Below, piece after piece: positions 16,203 through 61,909 of a stretch of 64,000 nucleotides of DNA. Source of the stretch: a virus; the IMG/VR virus record IMGVR_UViG_3300034073_005389, positions 62,001-126,000 of that record. One strand, written 5' to 3'. The notes below the pieces were generated by a model that was given only the letters and a program-made list of their open reading frames with translations, was not told the DNA's origin and did no database searches. Numbering within the stretch: position 1 is the stretch's first letter; each line of letters begins with the position of its first letter. Position numbers and translations under genes: made by a program.

Positions 16203-16805
16203 TTAACAATTATTATTTATTTTATGCCGTACTCTAGTTGCTCCATCTAGAATATTTGTCTTAGCATCTAAAGGTCTTAAATTTGAAAGGCACCAACATT
16301 TTTTAAAATTATCATCACTCATACTTGTATATGGTAGGCATGACTGAGGAACTATATGATCGATATGCCAATAAATGCCATAATTTTCCCAGGTCATTTT
16401 ACTATCGAACTGAATTTCTAAATGATTTTTTAGATCATTAATAGAGTACCCTAAAAATTGTAAAATACTTTGATTAAATTTCTGGCTATTATTGTTTTTT
16501 AAAACTTTACTTACTCTACCAGAAATATTTTTTCTGATTCTGAAAACAATATCATTTTTCAGTTTATTTCTATATTTTTCATTTATTTTGTCTCTATTTT
16601 GTTCGATATACTTTTTTTTATATATTTTAAATTTTAATTTTTGTTGTGATGTTAATCCGTGCTCTTTTACACGTTGCATTTGGGCTTGCGACTCACACTT
16701 TTTACATATTGATTTATAATAAATTTTTCCATTTTTATACTTACATTGACGATATTGATCAATTTCTTTATTATAATAGCATTTATTACAACTTTTTAAA
16801 TACAT
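16203..16805 (-). CDS. HNH homing endonuclease upstream of the sheath gene
   Basis: The 200-residue protein starts with a CxxC zinc-binding pair (KSCNKCYY, then CKKCES), continues with a basic linker, and ends in an HNH core (WHIDHIVPQSCLPYTSM, with CWCLSNLRPLDAKTNILDGA). It closely resembles the HNH gene at 12716-13489; together they bracket the sheath gene. Codon use is strongly AT-biased and Lys/Asn-rich, unlike the sheath. It lies 14 bases before the sheath start, so it is probably expressed late with the tail genes, perhaps from the TATAAATA box at 16883. Confidence 0.85.
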   Translation of the reverse strand: MYLKSCNKCYYNKEIDQYRQCKYKNGKIYYKSICKKCESQAQMQRVKEHGLTSQQKLKFKIYKKKYIEQNRDKINEKYRNKLKNDIVFRIRKNISGRVSKVLKNNNSQKFNQSILQFLGYSINDLKNHLEIQFDSKMTWENYGIYWHIDHIVPQSCLPYTSMSDDNFKKCWCLSNLRPLDAKTNILDGATRVRHKINNNC

Positions 16806-30187: not shown

Positions 30188-31033
30188 ATGGTATTGATTA
30201 TTATGAACAAAATAAATTTAAAAAAATTATCTAAAGAAATACTAGAATATGAATATAAAAGCTGTGGAAGTATGCAAAAAATGGCTGATAAACTAAATGT
30301 GTCAATTGATAGTATTTATAAATATATGAAACTATATAATGTAGATTATGAAATAAAGTATAAAGGAATTTATTATTGCAATAATAATTTTTTTAAAAAT
30401 GAATCTCCAGAATCTTTCTATTTAGCTGGGTTTATTGCCGCCGATGGGTCTGTTCAATATAGGAAATATTCTAAAATATTAAAGATAACATTATCTAAAA
30501 AAGATTTAGAACATCTGGAAAAAATAAAAAAACTATTAGAAAGTAATCATCCTATAAAAGAATATCAAGTTAAAAAAAATAAATTAGTTACTTCTGACAA
30601 AGAATGCGTAGAATTACAAATAGCAAATAAAAATATAGTAGATGATTTAAAAAAATTTAATATTATTCCAAATAAAACGAAAACATATGAAATGCCGGAA
30701 TGGCTGTTATCTCATAAATTTTTAAATCATTTTATGAGAGGATATTTTGATGGCGACGGAACAATTACTCATTGTGGTTTAAATAAAGGCAGAAAAATAA
30801 TACAGTTAAATTTTTCTATTTTAGGTACAAAAAAATTTATACAACAATATAAAGATATTTTATTAAAAAATTGTAAAACAAATGATGCCAAAGTAATAGA
30901 TCATCATTCTATTTACAAAATAAGTTATAGTGGAAATAATGTAGTTAAAAATATATATGATTTTTTATATAAAAATCAAAATATATGCTTGCAAAGAAAA
31001 TATGCAAAATTTAAAACATTATATGGCGACTGA
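30188..31033 (+). CDS. LAGLIDADG homing endonuclease (free-standing, plus strand)
   Basis: The 281-residue protein starts with a helix-turn-helix domain (SMQKMADKLNVSIDSIYKYM), followed by two LAGLIDADG motifs (YLAGFIAADGSVQ near residue 80 and MRGYFDGDGTI near residue 183). Both keep the catalytic acidic residue. A second in-frame ATG is at 30203 and could be the real start; no clear ribosome site favours either. It is inserted, in the opposite direction, between two related Ig-domain virion genes, and its last 15 bases overlap the end of the 31019 gene. Confidence 0.85.
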   Translation: MVLIIMNKINLKKLSKEILEYEYKSCGSMQKMADKLNVSIDSIYKYMKLYNVDYEIKYKGIYYCNNNFFKNESPESFYLAGFIAADGSVQYRKYSKILKITLSKKDLEHLEKIKKLLESNHPIKEYQVKKNKLVTSDKECVELQIANKNIVDDLKKFNIIPNKTKTYEMPEWLLSHKFLNHFMRGYFDGDGTITHCGLNKGRKIIQLNFSILGTKKFIQQYKDILLKNCKTNDAKVIDHHSIYKISYSGNNVVKNIYDFLYKNQNICLQRKYAKFKTLYGD

Positions 31034-35599: not shown

Positions 35600-36904
35600 C
35601 TACACTGCTTGTACTCGAAGGCGTCGAAACGTCATGGTGCCGCCGCCGCCGTGCGCCGCGACCAGCGAGAGGGGGCGCCCGAGAGGGTTAGATCCCTGCG
35701 TAAATGGAGCCTCGTAGCCGGTAGGCTTCAGCGCACTGTACAGCCATCGCAAGGTAGAGGTCCACGCAGAACTGTACGTTCCGAAATACTGACTAATCAT
35801 GCCAGAGGCAGTCAGACAGCCCACCGCCACATCGTTTCCGCTTCTGGCCAGGTAACGAGCAGCCCCTCCGCTGGATTGGGATTGCTCGGCAACACACAGA
35901 TCGCTTTGAGACTGTATGTAAGTATTCGCTACTCCACCTGTTCCGGCTAGATTGACGGTGCTCGGAAATCCGTTTTGACCGACGATCGGTCCTTCCGTAT
36001 CCCACCGAAAGTAGAAGCCGACCTGCGGGTTGCCGCTTCCGCTGAAGGTGCATTGAGCCCAGAAGATGAGGGTTTGGAAAGGGTTGGTGATGCCGAGCTG
36101 AGCAAACGTGGCGTATAGCTGCATGGTGCCAAAGCCGGAGCCTGTGAACACGAGCCCCGTTCCATTGACGATTGACAAAGTGGTCTGCGTCGGCTGGTTC
36201 AGGTTGCTCGTGAAGGTGGCGCTCCCGGTCGAACCGGCGAACGTGACCGTCTGCCCGGTCGTGATGGACTGGGTTGGAAGGCTCGCGAAGTCCACCTCGT
36301 ACACGGTTTGAGGACCGCCGCCGCTTGCGATCAGCGTACTCGAAGAAAGCGTCAATCCAGAGCCTACTGTAACCGCTGAACCATCTCCAGCAGTCAATTG
36401 AGAAGATGTACCAGAAAAAGTAGCTGCTGGTCCTGTAGCGCCTGTAGGTCCAATATCACCTGTAGCTCCTGTAGGTCCTGTAGGTCCAGTTATACCTATA
36501 GAACCTCTAGCGCCTGTAGCGCCTGTAGGTCCAGTGGCGCCAGTAGCGCCCGTAGGTCCTTGAGGTCCAGTAGGTCCAGGTTCAGGTAATATGCCAGGAG
36601 GAGGCAATGCCGGACTTTCTAAAGCTCCAACAATAAATGATTCTTGTTGAGGATCAAATTGCTCTAAATCTATGGAGCTAGATACTATTCTGATATCTCC
36701 CACTCTTATCTTATTAGCTACTTCTCCTTTTATTAAAGAACTTCTAATATCAGACTCCCCAATTCCTTCTATATTTAATAAATCGTATGTTTGCAAATAT
36801 TCTATTGGAGTATTAAATATAGTAATACGTTTTCTTTGTCTAGATATATTTTGAACAGTAAAATTAATAGATGTAAGTTTAGGATATAAATCAGTAGCTG
36901 CCAT
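35600..36904 (-). CDS. Chimeric collagen-like tail fibre with GC-rich C-terminal domain
   Basis: Residues 1-105 are an ordinary AT-rich virion-anchoring domain. Residues ~106-165 are a collagen-like Gly-X-Y stretch ([20 protein letters not shown] and repeats), interrupted once by RGSIGI. Residues ~185-434 are a beta-rich receptor-binding-type domain ([36 protein letters not shown]). The DNA for this last part is strikingly GC-rich compared with everything around it. The collagen stretch forms a trimeric shaft; the tip is probably a newly acquired host-recognition module. It has a TATAAATA box upstream and its own terminator. Confidence 0.8.
35607..36365 (-). other. GC-rich acquired segment within the fibre gene
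   Basis: From about 35607 to 36365 the sequence switches abruptly from AT-rich to strongly GC-rich (many GCC, GGC, CGG and CGC codons), then back. Both edges lie within or at the end of one reading frame, so the segment encodes exactly the C-terminal domain of the fibre and its stop region. The composition indicates recent transfer from a GC-rich genome. Confidence 0.8.
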
Positions 36905-37024: not shown

Positions 37025-38206
37025 TTATAATTTTTTATTAATCTCTATCCATTCATTTTCCCAAATAAAAACAAAATTGTATCCATTAGATCTAAATATT
37101 TTTTCTTTTTCAATTGTTCTACTATATAATTCTTTAAATGTTTTTTTACAAGTTTTATTATAATCATCTAAATTATAAATTTTAGGATTTCCATGATAAT
37201 AATCTCCCCAAAACTCATAAATTGTATTCGTCTCAGGAACATATGCATCTACTAAATATCTTTTTCCATTAATATATATTTTATGTTGTCGATATTTTTC
37301 ATCTATCTTTAGATAATTCAGCCACTCTATCTCTACTTTAGATATTCTATGAGAACAATAAGGACAATCACTACCCTTACTCCTAGCCCTCATATTAATC
37401 GATGCACTCCAACTATGACCCCTATTCTTACATATCCACCAAACTTTGTACCTACTACCACTTCCCGCAGTATACTCCTCCGGTCTTTTAACGTTTTTAC
37501 TATAATCCCATTCTACACATATCTCAGGATGAGTTACCAATAAATTATTCCTACTGTTTACACGCTTCCCAGCACAAAATGGACATCCTGTCTTACCATC
37601 TTTATAACTATTAACTACTCGATAAATTCTAGAATTAAAAACCTCATCACATTTTTTACATCTCCACTTCCCAATTTTAGCACTATAACTGCTTACCTGA
37701 TAAGCAAAAGGATGTAATAAATATCTAGATAACTCCGGATAATTTGACTCTAAACTATTTATCAAACTTACTTTTTTACTAGTACAATATGGACACCCTA
37801 TCTTATAAATAGTGCGGTTACATATTTTTTGATTAAAAAATAAATTGCACTTAGAACACTTCCACTCTACAACCTTGTCACTACCATAATTTAATAAATT
37901 ATAATCTTCTATGTTATTCTTTGACCACTCTAATATTAAATCAGGAGAATGCTGCGCTAAACTAGTTTTTAACTTAGCACTCCTAACTTGATTGGCAGGA
38001 TAATGCCTACATATCTTGGATTCATGAGATTTACGACGAAACCAATCCTTTAAAGAAATATAATACTCCTTCCCATTACATCGATTGCAATTAAAATAAT
38101 ATTTAATTTTTGAATATAATGTAATATTATCAGGAATAGGTCCGTTTTTAATAACATCCCACTCCAACTCCAATAAAGGATATTTAGCTAATAACTCACT
38201 TTTCAT
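37025..38206 (-). CDS. Zinc-ribbon repeat nuclease of the EDxHD (Vsr-like) homing type
   Basis: The 393-residue protein contains four or five tandem zinc-ribbon repeats (WKCSKCNLFF...CPYCTSKK, WRCKKCDEVF...CPFCAGKR, WWICKNRGHSW...CPYCSHR), each of about 70 residues. The C-terminal ~110 residues are a Vsr/EDxHD-like nuclease domain, with Glu in KVEIEWLNYL, Asp in YLVDAYVPETNT and FWGDYYHGNP carrying the conserved Asp/His. Such proteins (I-Bth0305I type) are homing endonucleases. It starts inside the last codons of the LAGLIDADG-methyltransferase gene (11-base overlap), so the two are probably coupled and act as a unit. Confidence 0.8.
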   Translation of the reverse strand: MKSELLAKYPLLELEWDVIKNGPIPDNITLYSKIKYYFNCNRCNGKEYYISLKDWFRRKSHESKICRHYPANQVRSAKLKTSLAQHSPDLILEWSKNNIEDYNLLNYGSDKVVEWKCSKCNLFFNQKICNRTIYKIGCPYCTSKKVSLINSLESNYPELSRYLLHPFAYQVSSYSAKIGKWRCKKCDEVFNSRIYRVVNSYKDGKTGCPFCAGKRVNSRNNLLVTHPEICVEWDYSKNVKRPEEYTAGSGSRYKVWWICKNRGHSWSASINMRARSKGSDCPYCSHRISKVEIEWLNYLKIDEKYRQHKIYINGKRYLVDAYVPETNTIYEFWGDYYHGNPKIYNLDDYNKTCKKTFKELYSRTIEKEKIFRSNGYNFVFIWENEWIEINKKL

Positions 38207-40340
38207 TTTTAAATATATAAACTAATTCACTCTTGGTGACCCCAGCCGTCTTAGTCAAATGCGACCTAACAGTCCTTAGGCTCACTTCTTCTACCACATT
38301 TCCAAATACCTCTGCCGCCATATTTACCATTCTAGGATAATTCTTCACGTTCAATCCAAAGTATTTCCCAGCTTTTAACATATATTTCGCATTCTCTAAG
38401 GTATTCTTCCAATATACATTGTAAAAATAATCCTCTCCCTTACTATACGCTTGACGATTATCTAAACAATAGACCTCTTGGGAATAATATGGTGGCGAAC
38501 TAAATACAAAATCTACACTATTCTCCCCTAACTTTACATTCTCCGATCCATCATTAATCAATGTCACATTCTCTAAACCTAATCCATCTTTCATCACTTC
38601 TAACTCATCTGTGGTCCATGGATCAACTCCAATATACTTTCTTCCACAACTAGCTGCCCCTAACATTCTACCTCCCCAACCAGCCGAGTAATCAAATACT
38701 GTCTCTCCCTTTCCGCTGTATTTCATATACAGGTATTTTGCAATTCCTGGCTTAAAAATAGAAATGCTAGGAACTACTCTAGATGATCTCATTCCCTGAA
38801 TTAACATCCTAAATGAAATATTAAATGTCTCTGTATTGTTAGGATCCTTCCAATCTAATCCTAACCTATTTTGAATAAGTTTGCGTAACTTATCATCATT
38901 ATTAAATATGTCTTTCATAGTAGGTTGCTTGTATTCTGTAGCATCATAAAACTTATGACAATAATATTTGCAAATATCTGTAGCCAATGAATCATTGTTA
39001 AATAACTCATTTACCGATAAATCAGGAGCATACTCTACTAGTTCTTTCCAACTTTTCTTTACTTCTGATAAATTATTTGGATACTGCCAGCCCAATGCCC
39101 TAAAGTGCTGAAATAATGGCTCAATTAATTCAAATCGCTCATCTCTGCTCAATGTCTTAACATAACTAGCTGTCAACAATTTTCCATTTATTTCTACAAT
39201 TTTATCGTAGTTAGTTCTATTATTGTTAGTGGTGCTTTTAATAGGATGATATTTATTATCACTGACTATTTTAGATACTGTTCTAGGATGTACTTGATGT
39301 TGTTTAGCTACTTCAACCAATTTAGCTCCATCCTCTACTTTATTAAGTATACTAATTTTAGCATCTTCTGATACTTTGTATTCTGTTCTAGAGAATCTAC
39401 GATTACCTTGTTGCTCTGCTAACTCTAGCATTCTTGTATATTTACGATCTAATCTAGTACTTTCTGTAGAGTCTTGGTATAGCCAAGTAGCTAATTTTAG
39501 TACTTTCTCATTGCCATTAGACTCTAATTCATAAGTATTATTGCCTGTTTTAGAAATACAACTTAAATTAACAATTAAATCTAATTCTTTTAAGATGATA
39601 CGTTGAATGGCTTCTCCACATTCTTTGGTGGTAGCTAAAGACCATTTCCATTCATTGTTGGAGCGATGTGCTAAACTACCATCTCCATCAAACATACCTC
39701 TTATAAATGGAACTGTAAATTGATTATCTAGCCATTGGGGATAGGTGATAATAAAGCTTTTGGCTCTAGGAACGCCCAAAGTTTTCATTTTTTCACATAA
39801 ATGTTTGCTGTATAGTCTAATACAACAAGTAGGATATTTTTTATCATTTAAATCAGATAAATATCTTTTTACTTTAGAATTTGGCAACCCAACAAAATTT
39901 GATAATTTAATTAAATGATTATAATCTTCGTCTTTTAAAGTAACACTAAAAGTACTTGTAATATCAGAATTATACGCATCTGCATAAAAAAAGCCTAACC
40001 AGTATGCTTTTTCTTGCGTATCAATAATGTCAAAAATATTCTCATTAAATTGAGTAAATCTGTGAGAAGAAGACTTGTCTCTCAATGCTCCCTTTTGATC
40101 TACCCATTTTTGAACTCGTCTTTTGTCAATATTGTATTTCATACCAAGAGATTTGGCGCTTACTCCTTGTTGATAAAGATCAACAATAAAAGGTATTTTA
40201 TCTTCAGTAAATTCCTCTCTAACTAAACAATAATTATTATCTTTAATTATTTGTTTTACTTCTTTTTCTTCCATATTTAATAATATAGAAATTCTTTTTG
40301 CCGCCAATCCATTCTCTGCCATCTCTTTTATTGTATTCAT
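38196..40340 (-). CDS. LAGLIDADG endonuclease fused to a DNA methyltransferase
   Basis: The 714-residue protein has an N-terminal helix-turn-helix region (residues ~1-85), a LAGLIDADG domain with two motifs (YWLGFFYADAYNS at ~113-125, FIRGMFDGDGSL at ~212-223), a second helix-turn-helix (~325-365), and a full methyltransferase from ~385. The methyltransferase keeps motif I (FDYSAGWGGRMLGA, ~549-562) and motif IV (SSPPYYSQE, ~614-622), an SPPY variant of the amino-methyltransferase DPPY. No splicing motifs of an intein are present. The architecture suggests one protein that can both cut and modify DNA; it is coupled to the downstream nuclease. Function beyond domain identity is inferred. Confidence 0.8.
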   Translation of the reverse strand: MNTIKEMAENGLAAKRISILLNMEEKEVKQIIKDNNYCLVREEFTEDKIPFIVDLYQQGVSAKSLGMKYNIDKRRVQKWVDQKGALRDKSSSHRFTQFNENIFDIIDTQEKAYWLGFFYADAYNSDITSTFSVTLKDEDYNHLIKLSNFVGLPNSKVKRYLSDLNDKKYPTCCIRLYSKHLCEKMKTLGVPRAKSFIITYPQWLDNQFTVPFIRGMFDGDGSLAHRSNNEWKWSLATTKECGEAIQRIILKELDLIVNLSCISKTGNNTYELESNGNEKVLKLATWLYQDSTESTRLDRKYTRMLELAEQQGNRRFSRTEYKVSEDAKISILNKVEDGAKLVEVAKQHQVHPRTVSKIVSDNKYHPIKSTTNNNRTNYDKIVEINGKLLTASYVKTLSRDERFELIEPLFQHFRALGWQYPNNLSEVKKSWKELVEYAPDLSVNELFNNDSLATDICKYYCHKFYDATEYKQPTMKDIFNNDDKLRKLIQNRLGLDWKDPNNTETFNISFRMLIQGMRSSRVVPSISIFKPGIAKYLYMKYSGKGETVFDYSAGWGGRMLGAASCGRKYIGVDPWTTDELEVMKDGLGLENVTLINDGSENVKLGENSVDFVFSSPPYYSQEVYCLDNRQAYSKGEDYFYNVYWKNTLENAKYMLKAGKYFGLNVKNYPRMVNMAAEVFGNVVEEVSLRTVRSHLTKTAGVTKSELVYIFKNEK

Positions 40341-40388: not shown

Positions 40389-40967
40389 TCACATATTGTC
40401 AAGGTTCATTTTTAATTTTATATTTAAATATATTTTTTCTATAAAATTTATAAATTGATCATGGCTCATGGTTCTTTTGCACATATTACATGTTTTGCAG
40501 CAAACAACTACATTATCGATGGTATGAGGTTTAAATTGATTTATTCTATCTAGACCATTATAAATAAAGAATCCATTTTCTTTTGCATCTTTAGATCTTC
40601 GCGCGTCATAAAAAGATTCATTATATTTACCATTGGGTTCACTATTGCAATAATAACAATTTAAAGAAGATAATGTTAAAAACATTTCAAAAGAAATATC
40701 TCCATCTGAATATCTATTTTTATATATTTTTCTAGCAGAAGCTTCTTGTGGAGAATATTTTTTCCTAGCTTGTGTCATTTTTTTAATTCTATTTTTTCTT
40801 TGCTCTATATTTAAACATCCACAAGATTTAACTCTACCAGATCTTAATTTGTTAGTTGTTACTATTTTGTTTGTACCACAATCACATCGACAAAGCCACT
40901 TTGATTTAGCTTCTTCTATTACTTCTAATCTAGTAAATTTTATTCCAATAAGATTAATTTTTTTCAT
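40389..40967 (-). CDS. HNH homing endonuclease downstream of the capsid gene
   Basis: The 192-residue protein has an N-terminal DNA-binding zinc motif (WLCRCDCGTNKIVTTNKLRS, then KSCGCLN) and a C-terminal HNH core (NCYYCNSEPNG, FFIYNGLDRINQ, VVVCCKTCNMCKRTM). It is a single-domain relative of the double-HNH protein at 43509-44678. The two flank the capsid gene. Sequence matching CAAGGTTCAT occurs inside its 3' end (40397) and again upstream of its start (41047), forming imperfect direct repeats around the gene. Confidence 0.85.
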   Translation of the reverse strand: MKKINLIGIKFTRLEVIEEAKSKWLCRCDCGTNKIVTTNKLRSGRVKSCGCLNIEQRKNRIKKMTQARKKYSPQEASARKIYKNRYSDGDISFEMFLTLSSLNCYYCNSEPNGKYNESFYDARRSKDAKENGFFIYNGLDRINQFKPHTIDNVVVCCKTCNMCKRTMSHDQFINFIEKIYLNIKLKMNLDNM

Positions 40968-41090
40968 ATTATTATAATATACCAGTACTCAAAACAAAAT
41001 AAATTTAAAATTTTAACAAAATACTGTCTTGGCTCACATAAAATGCTGACAAGGTTCATGTATAAAAATACATGTTGTACAGGTAAAATA

Positions 41091-41120
41091 AAAAGAGCTG
41101 CGATTGCTCGCAGCTCTTTT
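41091..41120 (-). terminator. Strong terminator after the major capsid gene
   Basis: A 13-pair stem (AAAAGAGCTGCGA with TCGCAGCTCTTTT, loop TTGC) lies 26 bases after the capsid stop, followed on the minus strand by TTTTATTTTACC. This is the strongest hairpin in the window and suits a highly expressed gene. Confidence 0.9.
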
Positions 41121-41145: not shown

Positions 41146-41879
41146 TCAGGCGCCGATTACTACTGACTTGCGACCAGCAGCAACACCACGAGGATTGACG
41201 ATACCGATACCGATGATTTCGCTAACTACCCATCCTAATTTAAGCTGTTTTGGTTCGTCAGCAGGAAGTACTTCGATGTCTTGGCGCACGGGCATGACAC
41301 CGACGAATTCAGGATCAGCACAACCATAGATAGTGCCTGGGGGAACGATCTTTGATACCATGATATCGGTGCCCCAGATATGAGCGTAGAGACCGGTTTG
41401 TAGTACTTCACGCATGGTGACGGGATCGAAATCACCGCCGCCTACGCCTTGACCACCACCTGAACCCCACTTGAGGATATCGGTAAATTCATTGATGTTC
41501 ATGAAGTATTTGGTGGTTACGAGGTCCCAGCGATCAATTTGTTGTTTGATTTCTACTAAGTCTCTCTTGAGTAGACCAGCGTCAGCAATATCTGTTACGG
41601 TGTTTTCTACTGAAGCGGCGGCATCGAGGGCGGCGAAGACGTTGGCATCTTCTTGAGCCATGATTTCTTGACGAGCCTTCTGGACTGCACGGTCGATGAC
41701 GTTGAAGCGGCGACGCTTAACTTCAGCGATACGTACTGTGGGGTTGGCGTAGATTTCGAATTCAGGAACTACAACGCGATCACCGAATACGCGGCTTTCA
41801 GGACCGGTACCGTTGCTGCTGATTACTACAGCGGCAACATCGATATCACGATCATAGGTGGGCATGGTGCCTTGGGGTA
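41146..41879 (-). CDS. Major capsid protein, exon 2
   Basis: The second exon begins with TACCCC and joins exon 1 to read DPLPQGTMPTYDRDIDVAAV, restoring an unbroken 337-residue capsid protein. It encodes the main HK97-type shell part: FEIYANPTVRIAEVKRRRFN, AVQKARQEIMAQEDANVFAA, WDLVTTKYFMNINEFTDILK, and a C-terminus of PVRQDIEVLPADEPKQLKLG. Codon use is more GC-rich than in neighbours, as expected for the most abundant virion protein. The apparent start at 41865 is an internal Met, not the true start. Confidence 0.85.
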
Positions 41880-43069
41880 CATAGGCAGTTGTTAAAATTA
41901 ACGTTAGTTAATTTGATAAGTCATTTCTGCTTATCTCTTCATATCTCTATGAAGGTCAGACTGTATCACCATCACTTTTTTGTGACGATTGGCATTCTAG
42001 TCGTTGAGGATTGTGGCATTAATTTATACTGCATACATTCTACGACATGGGGTCTAATGATGTCGCTGAGTTTTTGAGTATTTTCTTTATTTATATTTAT
42101 CTGAGAGTATTCTTTATTTTTATAAGTATATTTCATAACATTTGAATTAATGTCAAAACATCTTTTTAAATAATCTCTTAAAATATAATTTTCTTCTTCT
42201 GTAAAGCCCATTGTTGCTAACCTGGCATTAACACCAGATTTTAAATTTCCATCATCTTGAAACCAAACAGCTAAACAAAGCGGAGTCATATATATGTCTA
42301 AATTTTTTGGCACATGTTTAACTCTTGAAGAGTCATAAAACATATTTGCAAAATAATTTAAATCTTTATGACAAATTGTTGCGGTTTGTAGCATGGTAGA
42401 ATTACCTCTTTTATCTTCATACTCTCTATGAGTATTGATAAAAGGATCTAACATAGCTATTTTCCAAAAAAAATATGGAGATTGTGCTTTACAGTGGCTG
42501 AAAGATAATTTAAAATTTCCATTAGGACTATCTTTATGTAAACAACCATCTCCTAACAGTGTACCAACAATAATTTGTTTTTGTATACTATTAATAGGCG
42601 TTTCTCTTAAGATATCATATTTTCTGGAAGATGAGACTGGTTCTCTATTATTTGCTTTTAATATCCTAGATATTGCGGGAGCAGATATCTCATACCAATT
42701 AGCAATATTTTTAATAGTTTCGCCATTATCAAATTTATTAACTATATCTTTTATTTGATCTTGAGTAAAATCAGAAACATATTTTTTTCTAAATTTTACT
42801 TTTTGATTTTTTAAAATTTGCCTTGTTTTTTCATAAGAAATATGAAGCTTTTCGGCAATTTCTTTAATAGTTAATCCAGATTCATAGAAATTAGAAATCT
42901 CTTTTTCCATTATGCCACTCTTTCCTGCTGATTGTCTATATCATCTTAATTCTGTTACTATAACTATTTTGAAATTAACTTCTGTGTATAATTTATAGAG
43001 TGTTATAGTGATTAAGCTTTTAGAGTTTCCAGCATATAGCCAATTTTTAGATCCACTACCCTCAGTTTA
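41880..43069 (-). other. Group I intron in the major capsid gene
   Basis: The 1190-nt intron interrupts the capsid frame after DPL. The 5' exon end GATCCAT pairs with GTGGATC in the intron (P1, with the terminal U-G pair), and GGGTA just before it pairs with TACCC at the start of exon 2 (P10). Other core parts are visible: GCTGGAAACTCT with AGACAATCAGCAGG (P4/P6 side, P-Q), and CCTCAACGACTAG (R) with ACAGTCTGA (S). The intron ends in G. Together these show a group IA-like intron. It carries a LAGLIDADG gene whose 3' end overlaps the R element. Confidence 0.9.
41972..42910 (-). CDS. Intron-encoded LAGLIDADG homing endonuclease
   Basis: The 312-residue protein has two helix-turn-helix segments at the N-terminus (LTIKEIAEKLHISYEKTRQI and ETIKNIANWYEISAPAISRI), then two LAGLIDADG motifs (IVGTLLGDGCLHK and LAVWFQDDGNLKS). 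It is inside the capsid-gene intron, beginning just after the P4-P6 strand and ending across the R element, so its last codons are also ribozyme structure. It should cut intron-less capsid genes at the exon junction and so spread the intron. Confidence 0.9.
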   Translation of the reverse strand: MEKEISNFYESGLTIKEIAEKLHISYEKTRQILKNQKVKFRKKYVSDFTQDQIKDIVNKFDNGETIKNIANWYEISAPAISRILKANNREPVSSSRKYDILRETPINSIQKQIIVGTLLGDGCLHKDSPNGNFKLSFSHCKAQSPYFFWKIAMLDPFINTHREYEDKRGNSTMLQTATICHKDLNYFANMFYDSSRVKHVPKNLDIYMTPLCLAVWFQDDGNLKSGVNARLATMGFTEEENYILRDYLKRCFDINSNVMKYTYKNKEYSQININKENTQKLSDIIRPHVVECMQYKLMPQSSTTRMPIVTKK

Positions 43070-43349
43070 ATGGATCGACTACAAGGGCGCGACGTGCAAT
43101 TCCATGATAGTCTAAGTTTCTGCGGATAGGATTGGCCATTGCTTGAGCCAAAGCAATTTTGCCGTCTTGTGTCTGGATGGCGCGAGAAATTAATTCGTCG
43201 CGTTTTTCATCTGACAATGAGGGTTGACCAGCTAATCCCATGTTTGAGGGGGTGTTTTCTTCTAAAATACTAGCGTATTTTACTAATGTATGAAGCGCAT
43301 CCTTTAGCGATGATGCGTTCATTTCGCCTTTGCTATTGAACATATTCAT
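43070..43349 (-). CDS. Major capsid protein, exon 1
   Basis: The start is the ATG at 43349 (MNMFNSKGEMNASS), preceded by GGAGATCTCGA; an upstream in-frame Met has no ribosome site. The exon encodes the N-terminal, helical part (LKDALHTLVKYASILEENTP, RRNLDYHGIARRALVVDPL). Reading through the 5' splice site gives Asn and a stop, so the unspliced message yields only a 94-residue fragment. The 5' leader (43350-43450) holds a small CATGCA-TGCATG hairpin and a TATAAGTA box. Confidence 0.85.
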
Positions 43350-43508
43350 TCGAGATCTCCGAGTTGTAAAAGAATTGTTTGCCAGCATTCGCCAGCTGAC
43401 ATGCAAAAATGCATGTTCTTATATCTAATAATTTAATATTACTTATATTAATTTCTATTATAAAAATGCATATTACGATATATGCTTGACAGCATCTTTG
43501 AGGAAATA

Positions 43509-44678
43509 ATGAATAATAAAGATCTTATTGGGATAAAATTTAATAAATTAACAGTACAGTCTAAAGCAGAGAGTATACTTGGAGGAAAGAAAGTAAAAAG
43601 ATATTGGACAGCATATAATTGTAATTGTGAATGTGGGAATAAAATTATTGTAAAAACAGCTCATTTATTAAGAGGGCAAGTTAAATCATGTGGCTGTATA
43701 AATAAGAATGGTAGGTCTATTAAGCCTGGAGATAAATACAATAAATTAACTGCCTTAACATATAAAAAAGGAAGTAAATGGTTATGTCAATGTGATTGTG
43801 GAGAAATAGTAGAAATTAATACAGAAAGTATAATTAATGGCAATACAAAATCTTGTGGATGTTTAAAGTCTGAAATATCTTCTAAAAATTCTAATAAGTT
43901 AATAGAAGGTAGGAGAAAAAATGATCCTAGAATAGCTTCAGCTAGAAGAATTTGGCAAAGTTATTGTTACAATGACAAGATGTGCGAGATAGATTTTGAA
44001 AATTTTTATAAATTATCTCAACAAGATTGTTATTATTGTGGATTGAAGCCCAATAGAGAGTACAATTATTTTTTAACTAAATCATCTAATAGTTCTGAGA
44101 AGGCTAAAAAAGAAGGATTATTTATTTATAATGGGTTAGACAGAATAGATAGTAATAAATATCATACAATAGAAAATGTAGTATCATGTTGCAATGATTG
44201 TAATAGATGTAAGAATAATAGACCGGTTAATGATTTTTTAATTTGGATACAGAATATAAAAGAGAATAATAATAAAATAATAATTAGTAGTAGAGAAATA
44301 CCTAAAGGATCATTAGGAACATCGATTAAATGTATATTTTATAATTACAAGAAAGATACAGATTTAAAGATTGAGGAGTTTTATAATATTTCGCAGATGA
44401 ATTGTTATTATTGTGGATCATTACCGAACAATGTATTTAATAGGGCGAAGACAGATAAAAAAGCTTCTAAGAAAGCAAAGTTAGAAGGAGATTATATTTA
44501 TAATGGATTGGACAGGATTGATTCTAATTTAGGTCATGTTCGTGGGAATGTAGTACCATGTTGTAAGTATTGTAATTTTGGTAAGAGCAAATTAAGTATA
44601 GTTGAGTTTTATAATTGGGCTAATAGAGTTAAAAAGTATCAAAAAAAAGAGTCGGGAAAAAATCCCGACTCTTTATAG
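43509..44678 (+). CDS. Double-HNH homing endonuclease (plus strand)
   Basis: The ATG at 43509 follows GAGGAAAT and is preferred to an upstream ATG at 43482. The protein has two zinc-containing DNA-binding motifs at the N-terminus (CNCECGNK...SCGCIN and WLCQCDCGEI...SCGCLK), then two complete HNH domains: DCYYCGLKP with FIYNGLDRIDSNKYHTIENV, and NCYYCGSLP with YIYNGLDRIDSNLGHVRGNV. The duplication is unusual. It may bind and cut as an internal dimer. It lies opposite and adjacent to the capsid gene, and its last codons lie inside the terminator at 44646-44674. Confidence 0.85.
   Translation: MNNKDLIGIKFNKLTVQSKAESILGGKKVKRYWTAYNCNCECGNKIIVKTAHLLRGQVKSCGCINKNGRSIKPGDKYNKLTALTYKKGSKWLCQCDCGEIVEINTESIINGNTKSCGCLKSEISSKNSNKLIEGRRKNDPRIASARRIWQSYCYNDKMCEIDFENFYKLSQQDCYYCGLKPNREYNYFLTKSSNSSEKAKKEGLFIYNGLDRIDSNKYHTIENVVSCCNDCNRCKNNRPVNDFLIWIQNIKENNNKIIISSREIPKGSLGTSIKCIFYNYKKDTDLKIEEFYNISQMNCYYCGSLPNNVFNRAKTDKKASKKAKLEGDYIYNGLDRIDSNLGHVRGNVVPCCKYCNFGKSKLSIVEFYNWANRVKKYQKKESGKNPDSL
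44646..44674. terminator. Bidirectional terminator between HNH and decoration genes
   Basis: The stem AAAGAGTCGGGA pairs with TCCCGACTCTTT around a 5-base A-loop. It is placed to end the minus-strand 44700-45383 gene and also lies within the last ten codons of the plus-strand HNH gene. Confidence 0.8.
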
Positions 44679-52262: not shown

Positions 52263-53435
52263 TTATGCAGATAATTTATTTTTATATTCTTTTCTTATCC
52301 TACATATTACTTTTCTTCCTATCCCCATCACCCTGCTCAACTCCATAATAGATCTACTATCATTTACTATCATATCCATCTGCTCTTGCGTTAAACTCGC
52401 TTTGTTGTGCGGTATCCTGCCACAACCCTTACCCTTTCTATTCTCACTTATCTTTTTCCTAGTCTCATCCGTCACCAATACCGGCTTCTTCGGTAATACC
52501 TCTAATATCCCATTTCTAAGCAATCTAGATCCATGTACGGTACAATATCTAACATTATTAACAATCTTATATTTTGCTCTTCCAGCTACCATGCAACCAT
52601 CAGCATGACAATAAATTTCTTCTGTTGCATACCTAATTGCAGCCTTCTTTTCCCAAGTAGCCTTAATCCCAGCTGCCATTTTTTCCAATTGCTCTTTAGG
52701 TATTTTTTTTCCTTTATGAGATTCTGACATCTTCTTGCGAACCTCTTCCGTATAAATAGAATCTTTATTCAAAGAAGATCTCCATTTAGAATATCTTTCC
52801 TTCTGCTCATCAGTCCATTTGTGACCCTGCGCCGGATGACCCTTTGTCATAATTTGCTTTTTAGTCGCCTCAGATAACTTTCTTTTTAATTCTTGTCGCT
52901 GCTCGTCAGATAGTGATTTCCAACGATTGCTTAAATTTTTTTTCCAAGCTTCAGATTTAGGAGCGTTATATCCTCCCAATGTAGCATTGTATCCCTTACC
53001 ATTTTGGATATAACTATCATATTTAGTAACAAATTTTGTTTCTAATTCATTGGCAGCATCTGTATTATTGCAAGAATCTATAATATCAAATTTAAAATTA
53101 TTTGCCCCATGTTTTTTTATAGCTAAATGAAATGGTAAGTCAGAATTTTCAGAACTTTTTATATGAGCCTGCCACCTAGCAATAGGATTTACAGATTGAC
53201 CAATATAAATTTTGTTGTTTATTAAACATTTTGCACGATAAATATAAATTGTTCTATCTTCTTTATTAGTATTAGATCTTTTTTCTTCTCTAATTTTTTT
53301 TGCCACATCTTTAGGACTAATTAAAATTACATCCTCTATTGCAGCAACTTCTACTGCGTTAATTTCTAATGAATTAACCTCTGCGTTTTGATTTTCTAAA
53401 TTTTTATTATCAGTTGGTTGAATTTCTTGAGTCAT
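52263..53435 (-). CDS. GIY-YIG homing endonuclease with NUMOD-type repeats
   Basis: The start chosen at 53435 follows GGAGGAAC, a strong ribosome site; earlier Met codons lack one. About residue 60 begins a GIY-YIG nuclease domain (RTIYIYRAKCLINNKIYIGQ, then ARWQAHIKSS), with Tyr and Arg catalytic residues visible. NUMOD3-like repeats follow (KNLSNRWKSLSDEQRQELKR, RKKMSESHKGKKIP, TRKKISENRKGKG), and the C-terminus has a Cys/His zinc-like segment (EIYCHADGCMVAG) plus a helix-turn-helix. It lies next to the 53476 structural gene. Confidence 0.85.
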   Translation of the reverse strand: MTQEIQPTDNKNLENQNAEVNSLEINAVEVAAIEDVILISPKDVAKKIREEKRSNTNKEDRTIYIYRAKCLINNKIYIGQSVNPIARWQAHIKSSENSDLPFHLAIKKHGANNFKFDIIDSCNNTDAANELETKFVTKYDSYIQNGKGYNATLGGYNAPKSEAWKKNLSNRWKSLSDEQRQELKRKLSEATKKQIMTKGHPAQGHKWTDEQKERYSKWRSSLNKDSIYTEEVRKKMSESHKGKKIPKEQLEKMAAGIKATWEKKAAIRYATEEIYCHADGCMVAGRAKYKIVNNVRYCTVHGSRLLRNGILEVLPKKPVLVTDETRKKISENRKGKGCGRIPHNKASLTQEQMDMIVNDSRSIMELSRVMGIGRKVICRIRKEYKNKLSA

Positions 53436-53475
53436 ATGTTCCTCCAACTTCATATATATCATCAAAATCAAAATT

Positions 53476-54212: not shown

Positions 54213-55040
54213 ATGCAGAAAACAAAAAGAAACCACCAAATTGATCAAGAAATAATTTCTTTGTACAATAGTGGTTTAACGACATATGAGGTTGGAGAAA
54301 AAGTAAAATGTTCTCAAACATGTGTTTTAAATTGTTTGAAAGAGAATAACATTTGTAGAAGATCTACTTCTTCATATAATACTAAGTATATAACCAACTT
54401 ATATTTTTTTAATAAAATAGATAATGAGGCGAAGGCATATTTTCTTGGATTATTATATGCAGATGGAAATAATTATGTGAGGAGGAAGCATAGTTATGAG
54501 GTATCTATTAAGTTAAAGGCAGAAGATAAATACATATTAGAAAAGTTAAGAGATTATTTATGTCCTGAGATGAGTTTAAAAGAAGTAGTAGATAAGAGAA
54601 CGGGCAATTTGCATTATTTATTAAAAATAAATAGCAAAGAATTATCTGAGCAATTATTTAAATTAGGGTGTATACCGAATAAAAGTTTGATATTAAAATT
54701 TCCTATGATTGAGGAGGATTTAATATCTCATTTTGTACGTGGATATTTTGATGGGGATGGGAGTTTATATAGTAGAAAGGCTAATAAGAGTGGGCATATA
54801 AATTATATTTGGCAGATTACATCTACTAGATTTTTTTGTGAATATTTAAAAAATTATTTATTGAATAAATATAAAATAAATGGGACTATGAAATTGGCGT
54901 GTAGGAAAAGTAATTTAATAACTACGACATTATCGGTGGGAGGCAATAAGCAGGTAGAAAAGTTATTAGTTTGGATGTATGGTGGGGCGAGTTTGTATTT
55001 AGATAGAAAATATAAAAAGCCTCTGTTAAGAGGCTTTTAA
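54213..55040 (+). CDS. LAGLIDADG homing endonuclease (plus strand)
   Basis: The 275-residue protein starts with a helix-turn-helix (SLYNSGLTTYEVGEKVKCSQ) and has two LAGLIDADG motifs (YFLGLLYADGNNY and VRGYFDGDGSLY). Both acidic residues are kept. The frame ends KPLLRGF, and these codons form part of the terminator at 55014-55037. It is transcribed opposite to the neighbouring structural genes, within a short gap upstream of the 53476 gene. Confidence 0.85.
   Translation: MQKTKRNHQIDQEIISLYNSGLTTYEVGEKVKCSQTCVLNCLKENNICRRSTSSYNTKYITNLYFFNKIDNEAKAYFLGLLYADGNNYVRRKHSYEVSIKLKAEDKYILEKLRDYLCPEMSLKEVVDKRTGNLHYLLKINSKELSEQLFKLGCIPNKSLILKFPMIEEDLISHFVRGYFDGDGSLYSRKANKSGHINYIWQITSTRFFCEYLKNYLLNKYKINGTMKLACRKSNLITTTLSVGGNKQVEKLLVWMYGGASLYLDRKYKKPLLRGF
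55014..55037. terminator. Bidirectional terminator overlapping the LAGLIDADG gene end
   Basis: Stem AAAAGCCTCT with AGAGGCTTTT and a GTTA loop. It would stop both the plus-strand homing gene and the minus-strand 55068-55445 transcript. The last codons of the homing gene lie inside it. Confidence 0.75.
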
Positions 55041-56553: not shown

Positions 56554-59500
56554 TCAGAACATTCTCTTTGAAGTCTTAGCGAATGCTGCAGACAATTGTG
56601 ACCAATCATCAGATTGTGCGGTGTTGACTTCACCTGAACCAATCATACCTACTTGTGGCATACGTCCAGCTTCTTTTTGTAGAGTTGGTGCATGTTTAGC
56701 TACTACTCTCTTTAATGACTGGAATGACTCATCATTAAACTTCATGATTTCGTCTACTTGAGCTGAGACAGCATAGCTATCATTGACGCAAAGACCACGA
56801 TCTACCATTTCATGAGCTAATTCATAGGCTCTAGCTAATTTAACACGATAACCATTTAATTCATCTTCTACTTGAGCTTTGACGTGTTCTTTTACTAATT
56901 CGCTAGCAAATTCTGAACCACCGTCTACTTGACCGTAGTATTGCTTGTAGTACTTAACTGCGGCAGGATCTAAGCCTTCTGCTACTAAAGCGGGGAAGTC
57001 AGCAGTATCAAGCTTGCCTTCGCTAACTAAACGAGCAATTGCTTCTGCTTCTTTGCGAACTTTAACTGGAGCAGTAGCAACGTCCATCATCTTACGGCTT
57101 CTTTGTTCGACTGTTTCTACTAGACCTAATTCATCGCTAGGCTTGACATCAAGTTTAGTTTGACCATTGGTAAGTCTGTGTGCTTGATCTAACATATCGC
57201 TAAATTCTGCTTTTGACATATCGTGTAATTCTCCATCATCCATCTTACCAAGGGCGTCTGCAGCAAGTTTGGCGCGAAGAGCAGAGCGACCACTCTTGGT
57301 GTCAAATGCAGTGGCTTTCTTAACTGCAACTGTTTTGCCAGGATTTGCACTCATTGCATCATTTACCTTTGATGCATCATCTACATAAACCATATCGCTA
57401 TCCATATCGTTAGTATCACCGTCATCATCGTATGACATGAGGTCATCGGCGCTGCTTTCATCTGACGTGAATAAATTTTCATTTAAGCCAGAACCCAATG
57501 GCATATTTAATAAGTCTGCAAGATCTGATTCGGAACCTTGAGCAGATTTCTTTAGAGCTGCTTTTCTACGTTGTGCTGTCTTTTTCAATGAAGCCTCCAT
57601 TTGTGCACGTTTGACAAGAGCCTTGGTGCCACGAGCATATTTAACAAAGGCTGTCATTAATTTTAAACCATCAGCGATAGCTGTTTTAGCTTCTGCAAAA
57701 GCATCTGAAGCTAATGTATTTACTAATTCTTTATTAGCTCTGTTTACGCTACCATTTTTGTGAATAGTAGATAGCATGCCTAATTCTTGATAGTGATCAT
57801 TTAATTCTGCAATTGATTCTTTCATAGCGCGAGTTAATGCGCCATTTAATTCTTTGCGAAGTGTGTTGAGAGTAGATACGCTAAAGCTAGATGCTGCTGT
57901 AGCTAATTCTCCACCAGCTTCTGCACCGGCTTCAGGAACTTCTGCGCCAGCTTCAGGGGCTTCTTTGCCTAATTCTTCAATGGCTCCCATTTCAGCTTTT
58001 TCACCAGTAAGGGCTCTTACTGCCTCTACTAGATCTGAGCTAAGGTCTCTTACCTTTTCAGATAGTCTAAGAGCTGTTTCTTTAGGATCACCTTTCATAC
58101 CCTCATCTTCTACATCCTCTTCGCCAGCAGCTGGTGCGGCAGGAGCAGCTGCGCCCATATCAGCAGGTGGTGCAGCAGGAGCAGCAGCAGCAGGAGGAGC
58201 GGCTGGGGCAGGAGGAGCAGGAAGAGCAGGAGGAGCAGCTTGAGCTTGTCTTACTAGTGTGCGAACTCCATCAGGACCATATGATTTTACTTTATCAAGT
58301 AATCTGGCTCCAAAGTCTTTTGTAGCAATAGAATCATACATCATATTAGTATTGCCACCAGATAATTCACGAACTGATGCTGTAAGTAATAGTTTATCTC
58401 CAAGAAGAACTTGCCAACCGCTGTTTTCAAAATTAGTAGTACCGTCTAAGTTAGCTGCTTTTACAAATCTTGCTTTTAGACCTGCGCGAGCTAACATCTG
58501 CTTGCGCTTTAGTTCATTTGCCTCATCAGAAGAAGCAGGTGAAGGGTGTAAACTATTTACATCACCAACGCCAGGAAATGGCTTCTGTCCTACCATTTGC
58601 TTGTCTTCTGAACGAGCATCCATATTTAATGAATCAACTGGATATTTAACTTTTCCAGGGGTGGGTTCATTTACACCACCGCCACCTTGATAATAAGCTC
58701 TTTTATCTTCTAATGCTTGTTTTGCCATGTTGACAATAGCAGTACGACGCATAGCGCGCTCTTCAGCTTCTGCACGAGCTAACATCTTTTTACGCTGTAA
58801 CTCATCAGACTCATCAGATGAAGCAGGTGATGGATGTAATCCTGTTACGTCGCCAACTCCAGGGAATGGTGATTGACCTACCATTTGCTTGTCACCATTC
58901 ATTCTCATATCCTCATTTAAAGGATCTTTTGTATACTTGGCTTGACCTGGGGTAGGCTCATTAACGCCACCGCCACCTTGAAAATAACCTCTTTTATCAA
59001 AATTTGATCCAGACATATGTTGTTCCTCTTGTATGTTTGATGTATTTGCTAACTTATTCAATTTGTTTTTCATTAATTGTAACTTCGTTTCAATAGCAGC
59101 GGTAACTTCACGAAGTTCATTAATAGAATTTAAATCTGTAATGTCTTCTAAATTATTAGAAGCATATCTTGCATTTTGCGGGATACCCGGAGGCATCATG
59201 TTGTTAGAATCTTGAGTATCTGTTTTTAATGCTCCATTATTAGCATTTTCTTTCATTTGTTTTACTTGAGATAAAATATTCTGTATTTCTTGCTCAAAAC
59301 CATCTAAAGTATTTGACTCACATGTGAAATTAGCTGTATCACCAGGCTGATCTCCTTGAGTGGAAATACTAGCATGGAATACATCGGCAAATTTATTTAA
59401 CTCATTAGATTTATTTTCTACATAAGTATTTAATGTGTTAGCTGCTGCAATAATATGCTTTATATGAGCTTTTGGATCTGCCCCATTAACTACAATTGAT

Positions 59501-61309: not shown

Positions 61310-61909
61310 CTATAATATGAGGTTTCTATTTATAATAGATAAAAATTCTTCTGAAGTTTTAGTGCCTTTTTGTAAATTGCAAGAGGCGCAAGATGGCACT
61401 AAATTACTAATACAATGATTTCCGCCTCTACTTAATGGAACTTTATGATCTAAATGCAGATTTATTCCTCGTTTAACAAAAATTTTACAATAAAAACATT
61501 GATTGTTATTATTAATTAATAAATTATTAATTTCTATTTGACTGATATTTTCTGCATTAATTAACTTTTTTCTTTTATTATTTTTTAATAAAATATATTC
61601 TTTATTATTTTCTCTATACTTTTTGTTTTTATTTTTAAAATATTCTTTATTGTTTTGATAATAAATTCTTTGTTTTTGCAATCTTTCTTCTCTATGTAAA
61701 GCATGTGATTTCTTACAACTATCTCTACATTTATCTATATTTTTTATATATTGTTGTTTGCGCAATTGCTTAATATGTTCTTTATTTTTTTGAGCATATT
61801 CTTTTACACATTGCTTGCATCTTATTGCATGATCATCTAAATAAGATTTATTTTTAGAAAATTCTTGTAATTGTTTTAATAAATTACAAGTGCAACATAT
61901 TTTTTGCAT
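61310..61909 (-). CDS. HNH homing endonuclease next to the protease gene
   Basis: The 199-residue protein starts QKICCTCNLLKQLQEFSKNK with a CxxC pair, then CKQCVK, a long Lys/Asn-rich linker, and a C-terminal HNH core (NQCFYCKIFVKRGINLHLDH, KVPLSRGGNHCISNLVPSCA, SCNLQKGTKT). The start overlaps the stop of the 61909 gene (TAATG). It lies 7 bases upstream of the intein-containing protease gene, adding a second selfish element to that locus. Confidence 0.85.
   Translation of the reverse strand: MQKICCTCNLLKQLQEFSKNKSYLDDHAIRCKQCVKEYAQKNKEHIKQLRKQQYIKNIDKCRDSCKKSHALHREERLQKQRIYYQNNKEYFKNKNKKYRENNKEYILLKNNKRKKLINAENISQIEINNLLINNNNQCFYCKIFVKRGINLHLDHKVPLSRGGNHCISNLVPSCASCNLQKGTKTSEEFLSIINRNLIL

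Follow-up and report, generated by a model that had tools for sequence, protein, structure and literature searches.

The window analysed here is a stretch of 64,000 nucleotides from a virus (positions 62,001 to 126,000 of IMG/VR record IMGVR_UViG_3300034073_005389). On its minus strand, positions 38196-40340 hold one uninterrupted ORF of 714 codons, with an ATG at 40340, whose product joins an endonuclease to a methyltransferase (MTase) (Table 1). The single 714-residue frame reported in a first-pass annotation, which left the strand unstated, is intact. The locus of this homing endonuclease gene (HEG) starts immediately past the hairpin (41091..41119) of the major capsid protein (MCP) gene, and a hairpin with a T-run past the MCP stop codon is general among relatives. 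The MCP gene is itself split by an intron that holds a LAGLIDADG_2 ORF separate from the fusion. A weak group I intron match was found at 41937-42069, and Rfam gave no match over the window at gathering threshold. The HNH-type gene (40389..40967) upstream of the fusion gene is lacking in L001, used for comparison. The DUF4379/phrog_559 gene shares 11 bp with the 3' end of the fusion gene, and the same gene pair occurs in L004.

Table 1. Features of the fusion gene and its surroundings (window positions)
Feature	Position	Strand	Evidence
DUF4379/phrog_559 endonuclease gene	37025..38206	-	PF14311 2e-35, phrog_559 7e-18
Fusion gene, 714 aa, HTH-LAGLIDADG-HTH-amino-methyltransferase	38196..40340	-	single ORF; domain matches; AlphaFold pLDDT 90.9; 18 distinct complete fusions
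MTase half, residues 379-714: motifs X (528-536), I (548-558), IV (614-619)	38199..39206	-	profile, motif and fold matches; start of free-standing homologues
Linker HTH (HTH_23), residues 323-360	39261..39374	-	Pfam HTH_23 E 2e-7; alignment
Endonuclease half (residues 1-308), comprising HTHs at the N terminus (1-85) and a LAGLIDADG domain with two motifs (about 98-308; acids D121 and D220)	39417..40340	-	phrog_4645 E 7e-45; Foldseek; motifs
Sigma70-like promoter of fusion gene	TTGACA 40402-40397, TATATT 40380-40375	-	read directly
HNH-type endonuclease gene, between boxes upstream of fusion gene	40389..40967	-	phrog_374 4e-16, phrog_1035 3e-14
Box TGAACCTTGACAA, overlapping -35 of fusion gene promoter	40396..40408	-	read directly
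Third box copy TGAGCCAAGACAG	41024..41036	-	read directly
Second box copy TGAACCTTGTCAG, past MCP terminator	41046..41058	-	read directly
Intrinsic terminator-like hairpin of MCP gene (AAAGAGCTGCGAGCAATCGCAGCTCTTTT)	41091..41119	-	read directly
MCP, C-terminal exon (residues 99-337)	41146..41865	-	phrog_2522 E 2e-59; MCP HMM exon boundaries
LAGLIDADG_2 endonuclease ORF in MCP intron, separate from fusion	41972..42910	-	PF03161 E 9e-33
MCP, N-terminal exon (residues 1-94)	43062..43406	-	phrog_2522 E 2e-11; MCP HMM exon boundaries

Residues 15-307 of the fusion protein match the phage HTH-LAGLIDADG_3 endonucleases of phrog_4645 (E 7e-45), a family whose model has no MTase, unlike our protein; the Pfam LAGLIDADG_3 match to the same residues (E 7e-4) falls narrowly below the Pfam cut-off. 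Both acid-bearing motifs of LAGLIDADG homing endonucleases are present, P1 'AYWLGFFYADAYN' (D121) and P2 'FIRGMFDGDGS' (D220), and the predicted fold has their alpha-beta-beta-alpha-beta-beta-alpha order, with Foldseek matches to I-Tsp061I (2dch), I-AniI (3eh8) and 2ab5. The first-pass annotation had described this domain as complete. AlphaFold modelling reached a pLDDT of 90.9 with a 47-row alignment (57.7 with 7 rows). Two HTH regions had been noted, and Pfam finds HTH_28 (residues 52-82) and HTH_23; the predicted structure has three HTH-like units, at about 14-35, 62-82 and 325-362. The linker HTH is absent from the alignment of some relatives (L008, L009).

The C-terminal half carries MTase motifs X 'FKPGIAKY', I 'FDYSAGWGGR' and IV 'SSPPYY', the last two as in the first-pass annotation, in the order X-I-IV. 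With these motifs, a predicted Rossmann-like fold and matches to Type II MTase models (6e-8 to 3e-12), it has the features of an amino (N4-cytosine/N6-adenine) MTase. Further matches were obtained with mad2 (1e-11) and, within residues 523-659, with phrog_12517 (1e-11) and the DNA methyltransferase family phrog_498 (4e-9), so that the suggested HMM search of each domain returned endonuclease, HTH and MTase profiles alike. PF01555 is below cut-off in the fusion protein and above it in free-standing homologues (up to 1e-10). Over the whole phage genome PF01555 gave no match, which is no proof of a single MTase, since the model misses the window copy too, which has diverged too far from it. In GTDB genomes, a search with the MTase profile yielded 35 pattern matches and no relative.

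Family evidence favours DNA as the MTase substrate, although a tRNA MTase gives the closest match by fold in the PDB. Action on RNA or another substrate, with the HEG joined to the MTase outside any restriction-modification (RM) logic, would fit the Foldseek matches of the predicted MTase half, which are led by tRNA MTases (Trm11, 6zxv, at the top; m1A58), and its motif order, which differs from that of 8s9n, an N4-cytosine MTase retrieved by profile match. However, the SSPPYY motif, the DNA-related profile matches just listed and the resemblance in fold to pithovirus N4-cytosine MTases make this reading very improbable.

Free-standing MTase homologues (L010, L085, L099) start at the boundary equal to residue 379; they share their N-terminal 150 aa with the fused MTase and have no HEG half. 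Because the MTase is complete from this residue onwards, the endonuclease must have been joined ahead of it rather than inserted into it. An intein, already discounted in the first-pass annotation, is rejected on the same grounds.

In IMG/VR giant-phage contigs, the suggested search for the same domain order retrieved 18 distinct complete LAGLIDADG_3-MTase fusions, window copy included, with identities to the latter down to 35%. Both halves are under purifying selection, with dN/dS values of 0.15-0.23 in the LAGLIDADG half and 0.05-0.25 in the MTase half, and in most pairs the MTase half is the better conserved. The HEG and MTase genes are separate, overlapping neighbours in L099 and others, which might suggest that an assembly or sequencing artefact, or a chance join of neighbouring genes, united them here. 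Given 18 complete fusions from different metagenomes and selection on both halves, we rejected a frameshift or assembly join and regard the possibility as negligible; the fear that the halves are always separate and were joined by error is thereby removed. Loss of catalytic residues, also raised at the outset, is limited to one copy. Among the 19 fused HEGs scored (the 18 complete fusions and one copy ending at a contig end), the catalytic acid is present in 19/19 for P1 and 18/19 for P2, and 18/18 complete fusions have motifs I and IV of the MTase. The exception is L092, whose HEG is devoid of the second LAGLIDADG acid while its MTase is intact.

Other nucleases, too, are joined to MTases of this wider family: LAGLIDADG_2 in three proteins (L111, L148, L150) and a Vsr-like nuclease in two (L138, LR756508.1). 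The pairing of nuclease and MTase arose several times. The trees of the two halves conflict, the L114 MTase grouping with the window clade and the L114 HEG with L088; therefore, the halves re-associate. Where the MTase stands alone, it is adjoined by a gene of about 250 aa that we considered as a candidate restriction enzyme and rejected, as Pfam assigns it to a PF09924-like GNAT fold (no PHROG match). This GNAT is accompanied by an MTase of the fusion type in 19/19 loci, and the HEG of the LAGLIDADG_3-MTase type is fused to it twice (L163/L328 and L326). It gave no match in the genome of the window, a weak negative.

Wherever the flank of a LAGLIDADG_3-MTase fusion is available, the fusion is found at the 3' end of an MCP gene. 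MCP loci number 213 in all; among the matches listed, 47 unique loci with 3.5 kb downstream were sampled regardless of HEG or MTase presence, and of these 8 have the MTase, 11 the HEG and 35 neither. HEG and MTase co-occur at these loci (both, HEG only, MTase only and neither: 7/4/1/35; Fisher p = 4e-5), and the patchy presence at one site in related genomes that marks HEGs is seen there. Some MCP-adjacent HEGs have no MTase inside 3.5 kb (L035, L044, L050, L083), and free-standing MTases are found near MCP genes with no LAGLIDADG_3 gene close by (L090/L101, L105). Away from MCP loci, 80/80 related phage MTases among the matches listed are unfused, and 0/55 weaker LAGLIDADG homologues are fused; we therefore rejected a general habit of either family to fuse. 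The closest deposited MCP is gp27 of Bacillus phage G (52.6% identity to the L001 orthologue). A nuclease-like zinc-finger gene, gp28, is likewise found directly 3' of it, but it encodes neither a LAGLIDADG nor an MTase domain.

The box that overlaps the -35 element of the fusion gene tracks the HEG lineage of the fusion. It was found downstream of MCP in 9/14 fused loci and at the free HEG of L099, often with further copies, versus 1/52 MCP loci without a HEG. Together with the three HTH units, the broken HEG of L092 and the lack, in the MTase, of a large domain separating motif I from IV or following IV, this distribution is compatible with a LAGLIDADG/HTH half that now mainly targets DNA or regulates, steering the MTase and controlling its own gene through the TGAACC boxes, with cutting secondary or lost. 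We consider this improbable: both acids are kept in nearly all HEGs, as expected of a nuclease, and MTases with the same N-terminal region exist without the HEG half.

The first-pass annotation knew of no standard family with this architecture. For an N-terminal fusion this is a fair statement, and our search of the open-access literature found no description of such a fusion; nevertheless, a LAGLIDADG inside a phage DNA methylase has been published. In Taj_79 and its relatives, from cluster F actinophages, a 139-aa LAGLIDADG domain is inserted within a DNA methylase and was interpreted as having invaded the methylase gene (PMC9957025). Both cases have an endonuclease and a methylase as separate domains of one polypeptide. 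However, the fusion has a full HTH-LAGLIDADG HEG ahead of a complete MTase, resides at the MCP locus of giant phages and, unlike the Taj_79 type, recurs with other nuclease families and GNAT; a Taj/ShiLan-type interruption of a methylase frame or domain was not found. Jumbo phages also encode Mom (GNAT)-REase fusions, predicted modification-restriction units that would protect their own DNA and cut that of others (Iyer et al. 2021, PMC7824862). They provide a precedent for the RM-like idea, with a nuclease fused to a base-modifying enzyme, but they combine a REase-fold nuclease with Mom, whereas the present group has a LAGLIDADG or Vsr-like nuclease with an N4/N6-type MTase (or a PF09924 GNAT), and is linked to a single locus and to nucleases of the homing type. 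Neither a Mom-family GNAT nor a REase-fold domain is present in the fusion protein, which is thus not such a unit.

An endonuclease and an MTase also share a single chain in the fused Eco29kI R-M protein, according to PMC3039593. The fusion has this property of single-chain Type IIG/IIC enzymes, but the known Type II nuclease themes are mostly PD-(D/E)XK, HNH and GIY-YIG, with LAGLIDADG not among them (PMC4081073); since its nuclease is a LAGLIDADG_3, we did not file it as a Type IIG/IIC member. Free-standing phage HEGs (T4 Seg/F-Tev type; ICP1 and relatives, PMC10448857) similarly adjoin capsid and other essential genes, sharing with the fusion the position next to a conserved structural gene, but no modification enzyme is described with them in PMC10448857, in which 'methyl' occurs 0 times.

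The first-pass annotation proposed either that the gene is a mobile RM-like unit or that a homing gene captured a modification gene. Comparison supports these proposals in part: several independent nuclease-MTase fusions, HEG-GNAT fusions and statistical co-occurrence, almost all of them 3' of the MCP gene, speak for a real and recurrent partnership of HEG and modification enzyme, and both catalytic centres are kept, but comparison does not separate 'cut rivals, protect self' from hitchhiking. Hitchhiking is the main rival and a serious possibility. The MTase would be an ordinary, useful anti-restriction enzyme and the HEG, fused to it in frame, would gain permanence because its deletion would damage the MTase gene, the two activities addressing unrelated sites. 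Related standalone phage MTases are indeed common (e.g. Vibrio phage 2.058.O), HEG insertions in phage methylases are already known (PMC9957025, PMC11855218), and the stronger conservation of the MTase half and the L092 copy point the same way. Hitchhiking alone, however, does not explain why fusion has occurred repeatedly and with several nuclease families, why HEG-GNAT fusions exist and why all listed related MTases elsewhere are unfused.

We lean, tentatively and with somewhat less than even confidence, towards a free-standing homing element that has its own modification enzyme and works like a mobile RM unit. We infer the cleavage, its target, the methylation, the shared specificity and the protection. 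The element, with nuclease and DNA modifier in one polypeptide, would reside directly behind the MCP gene of giant, phage G-like phages. Its HTH and LAGLIDADG half would recognize and cut a long site in or near the MCP gene of a co-infecting, element-free phage, and repair would copy the element into the cut locus (homing with marker exclusion). The MTase half would methylate an exocyclic amino group (N4-C or N6-A) of the carrier DNA, whose MCP locus would be spared. Since the element lies beside its target gene and not inside it, it may need a protective mark; methylation may then replace the site disruption on which an intron or intein relies. The HEGs without a nearby MTase imply that such protection is not obligatory. 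Besides these HEGs, three observations speak against the RM-like model: the L092 HEG with an intact MTase, the MTases near MCP genes without a close LAGLIDADG_3 gene, and the Trm11 match of the predicted fold, by which the substrate could be RNA. The broader proposal of a LAGLIDADG-based, self-propagating RM unit, in which base modification by MTase or GNAT repeatedly evolved as the 'immunity' of free-standing homing genes and shields by methylation the carrier's uninterrupted target beside the giant-phage capsid gene, is possible but rather unlikely.

Homing endonucleases and RM systems alike cut DNA selfishly and, although they have long been compared with each other, have been kept apart. 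Homing genes avoid self-cutting by destruction or divergence of the site, and RM systems by methylation. If the model is true, LAGLIDADG becomes a nuclease class of RM-like systems, a rare-cutting nuclease comes supplied with its matching protective methylase, and the presence of a free-standing homing gene beside an intact target is explained. A fusion of HEG and modification enzyme that recurs at a single locus would form a natural intermediate between homing genes and RM, and it allows a direct test of whether cutting drives competition at the giant-phage capsid locus.

We confirmed the 714-residue frame reported in the first-pass annotation as an uninterrupted ATG-to-stop ORF without internal stops, in a virus record of 361,490 bp of which the window is positions 62001-126000. 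HMM searches likewise bore out the reading of a LAGLIDADG domain joined to a methyltransferase (MTase). The AlphaFold model of the fusion (47 rows) has a pLDDT of 90.9 and a pTM of 0.60; thus, the domains are well modelled and their mutual placement is uncertain. Using Foldseek, the endonuclease half matched the homing endonucleases I-Tsp061I and I-AniI, and the MTase half matched Trm11 and other Rossmann MTases; among viral models, the matches were LAGLIDADG endonucleases of phages and N4-cytosine MTases of pithoviruses. By sequence, the PDB entry that the MTase profile matches best is the N4-cytosine DNA MTase 8s9n (E 4e-4), whose motif order is the other way round.

The LAGLIDADG_3-MTase fusion is real and conserved. 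The search for the same domain order that the first-pass annotation had proposed, in 2.9 million viral contigs, yielded full-length relatives with 83%, 82%, 61-63%, 40% and 37% identity, and later scans added more. Altogether, 18 distinct complete fusions were collected, 17 of them besides that of the window, plus one ended by a contig edge (L164). The catalytic Asp of the first LAGLIDADG motif (P1) is retained in 19/19 fusions and that of the second (P2) in 18/19, the exception being contig L092 (FDGKG). All 18 complete fusions have MTase motifs I and IV and a recognisable motif X. Hence, the initial concern that the halves might otherwise always be separate genes does not stand, and that of catalytic loss holds for P2 of L092, the acids being mostly kept. 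For pairs with measurable dS, NG86 dN/dS ranges from 0.15 to 0.23 for the LAGLIDADG half and from 0.05 to 0.25 for the MTase half, values that are rough where dS exceeds 1.5 (several pairs).

Every fusion with its flank present is found in the 3' flank of the major capsid protein (MCP) gene, mostly some tens to a few hundred bases past its terminator and in the same orientation. One extra homing endonuclease gene (HEG) separates the two in some loci (e.g. L088, L092, L160), and the fusion is convergent with the MCP gene in L141 and L143. As the MCP profile recognises one family alone, all statements on MCP adjacency are limited to that family. The MCPs of the fusion phages share 82-92% identity with that of L001, and the fusions only 35-82% with that of the window. 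Among deposited phages, Bacillus phage G has the MCP nearest to that of the window (52.6% identity, measured on the L001 orthologue). A scan by MCP alone gave, among the best 80 of 213 matches, 47 unique loci whose downstream sequence spans 3.5 kb or more. Seven harbour both LAGLIDADG_3 and MTase, four LAGLIDADG_3 only, one MTase only and 35 neither, a significant co-occurrence at these loci (Fisher p = 4e-5; 6e-5 with similar loci collapsed). In phage G, a zinc-finger, nuclease-like gene (gp28) immediately follows the major capsid gene, and the MCP 3' flank may therefore be a hot spot for nucleases in that phage as well.

The structural module of the window phage is densely invaded by apparent homing-type genes (LAGLIDADG, HNH-like and GIY-YIG-like, recognised by eye), found between structural genes. 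Its MCP gene is split, the gap holding a LAGLIDADG_2 ORF and a low-scoring match to a group I intron; the L003 MCP is split at the same place, and that of L010/L137 elsewhere. A 1582-aa ORF apparently contains an intein: its N-terminal part is followed by 'CFPPRTKILLENGAVKNIEDVEPGDMVITHKG ... YVANWIVVSN' and then by the remainder of the phage protein. A tail-fibre-like protein is encoded downstream of the HEG cluster.

A box, TGAACCTTGACAA, that includes the -35 hexamer of a sigma70-like promoter is located ~54 bp upstream of the start codon in several fusion genes, and 68 bp upstream in the window. First spotted by eye and counted afterwards, it occurs in relaxed form downstream of the MCP gene in 9/14 fused loci and in L099, which has a free HEG, versus 1/52 loci without HEG. 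An HNH gene is inserted between the three copies of the window; L001 has three boxes in tandem and no HNH gene. The box is a candidate operator of this HEG lineage.

Free-standing MTases (340-359 aa) begin at the boundary corresponding to residue 379 of the window fusion and mostly adjoin a gene for a ~250-aa protein of GNAT (acetyltransferase) fold (PF09924). The MTase is present in 19/19 loci found with the GNAT profile, and MCP in the flank of 17/19. This GNAT-fold family has no PHROG match and no member in 50,697 phage records; together with the accompanying MTase, it possibly represents a new DNA base-modification pair. In L099, HEG, GNAT and MTase are three consecutive overlapping genes behind MCP. 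L163/L328 and L326 carry a HEG-GNAT fusion near the MCP 3' end, with a separate MTase gene. LAGLIDADG_2 is fused to MTases of the wider family in L148, L150 and LR745208.1 (L111), all immediately behind MCP, and a Vsr-like nuclease in L138 (behind MCP) and LR756508.1 (no MCP in the 12 kb read). The LR756508.1 gene adjoins a 570-aa homing endonuclease gene (phrog_3339, 1e-94).

Features of the window and of related viral loci (L numbers; positions without an L number are in the window)
Feature	Position	Strand	Remarks
LAGLIDADG-MTase fusion	38196-40340	-	714 aa
HTH-LAGLIDADG endonuclease	fusion residues 15-307		phrog_4645, E 7e-45 (HMM search)
HTH_23	fusion residues 323-360		HMM search
Amino-methyltransferase	last third of fusion		phrog_12517, 1e-11; phrog_498 DNA methyltransferase, 4e-9; PADLOC Type II MTase, 6e-8; mad2, 1e-11
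Box copies	40408, 41036, 41058	-	
Split MCP gene	41146-43406	-	
LAGLIDADG_2 ORF	41972-42910		in MCP gap
Group I intron match	41937-42069		weak; below gathering score (25.6 against 50 bits)
Intein-containing ORF (apparent)	56554-61302	-	1582 aa
Apparent homing-type genes	30188-31033, 54213-55040, 43482-44678, 12716-13489, 16203-16805, 52263-53471, 61310-61909		by eye
Tail-fibre-like protein	35600-36904	-	collagen-like repeat
Other complete LAGLIDADG_3-MTase fusions	L001/L002, L003, L004/5/7, L006, L008, L009, L067/68, L088, L092, L104, L107, L123, L141, L143, L144, L160, L162		
GNAT-fold genes (~250 aa)	L098 6056-6814, L099 2574-3326, L010 4192-4932, others		PF09924-like
LAGLIDADG-GNAT fusions	L163 3968-5716; L326 3882-5747		582 aa; 621 aa
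LR756508.1 fusion	L312 4540-6474		644 aa; MucR/C2H2 zinc fingers + NUMOD3 + Vsr-like nuclease + MTase
Phage G gp28	L151 5259-6191		

The MTase tree requires six or more changes of the LAGLIDADG_3-fused state, three of which well-supported branches make unavoidable. Free and fused MCP-adjacent HEGs are intermixed in the HEG tree (seven changes, four forced). L114 carries the unfused MTase nearest the window clade, and its HEG is a separate, inverted gene whose closest kin is that of L088. Thus, the two halves have partly separate histories and were repeatedly joined. Among 80 related phage MTases collected with a second profile, 0/80 are fused and 0/80 have such an MCP nearby. Of 78 LAGLIDADG loci, the 23 strongest (score >=264) include 22 with MCP in the flank, the remaining contig beginning too close to tell; none of the 55 weaker ones (score <264) is fused or MCP-adjacent.

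A LAGLIDADG domain within a phage DNA methylase is on record for Taj_79 and relatives (PMC9957025), and that methylase family also harbours a concealed HNH element that homes (PMC11855218). Fusions of Mom-type GNATs with REase domains in jumbo phages have been proposed as modification-restriction units (PMC7824862), and phage HEGs commonly adjoin capsid and other essential genes (PMC10448857). The fusion combines the themes of Taj_79-type methylases, Mom-REase units and capsid-adjacent HEGs. We found no description of its architecture in the open-access literature, in line with the first-pass view that no standard family has it, a view to be qualified by the published Taj_79-type methylases. 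The nuclease class, which was tested, is none of those known for Type II RM systems, and a specificity shared by the two halves is putative; the fusion is therefore not classed among them.

The recurrence of such joining at a single locus, with different nucleases and two kinds of putative modifying enzymes, argues for functional coupling over accident, as does the lack of any such fusion among the relatives of either half found elsewhere. Nevertheless, HEGs at the same site do without MTase, and in one fusion the HEG half lacks a catalytic acid and the MTase half is intact, which calls for caution. The strongest rival, in our estimation only somewhat less probable, is that fusion to a useful anti-restriction MTase shields the HEG from being lost. 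The best-supported model, tentative as it is, remains that the fusion would be a free-standing homing element bearing its own modification enzyme, both activities being putative.
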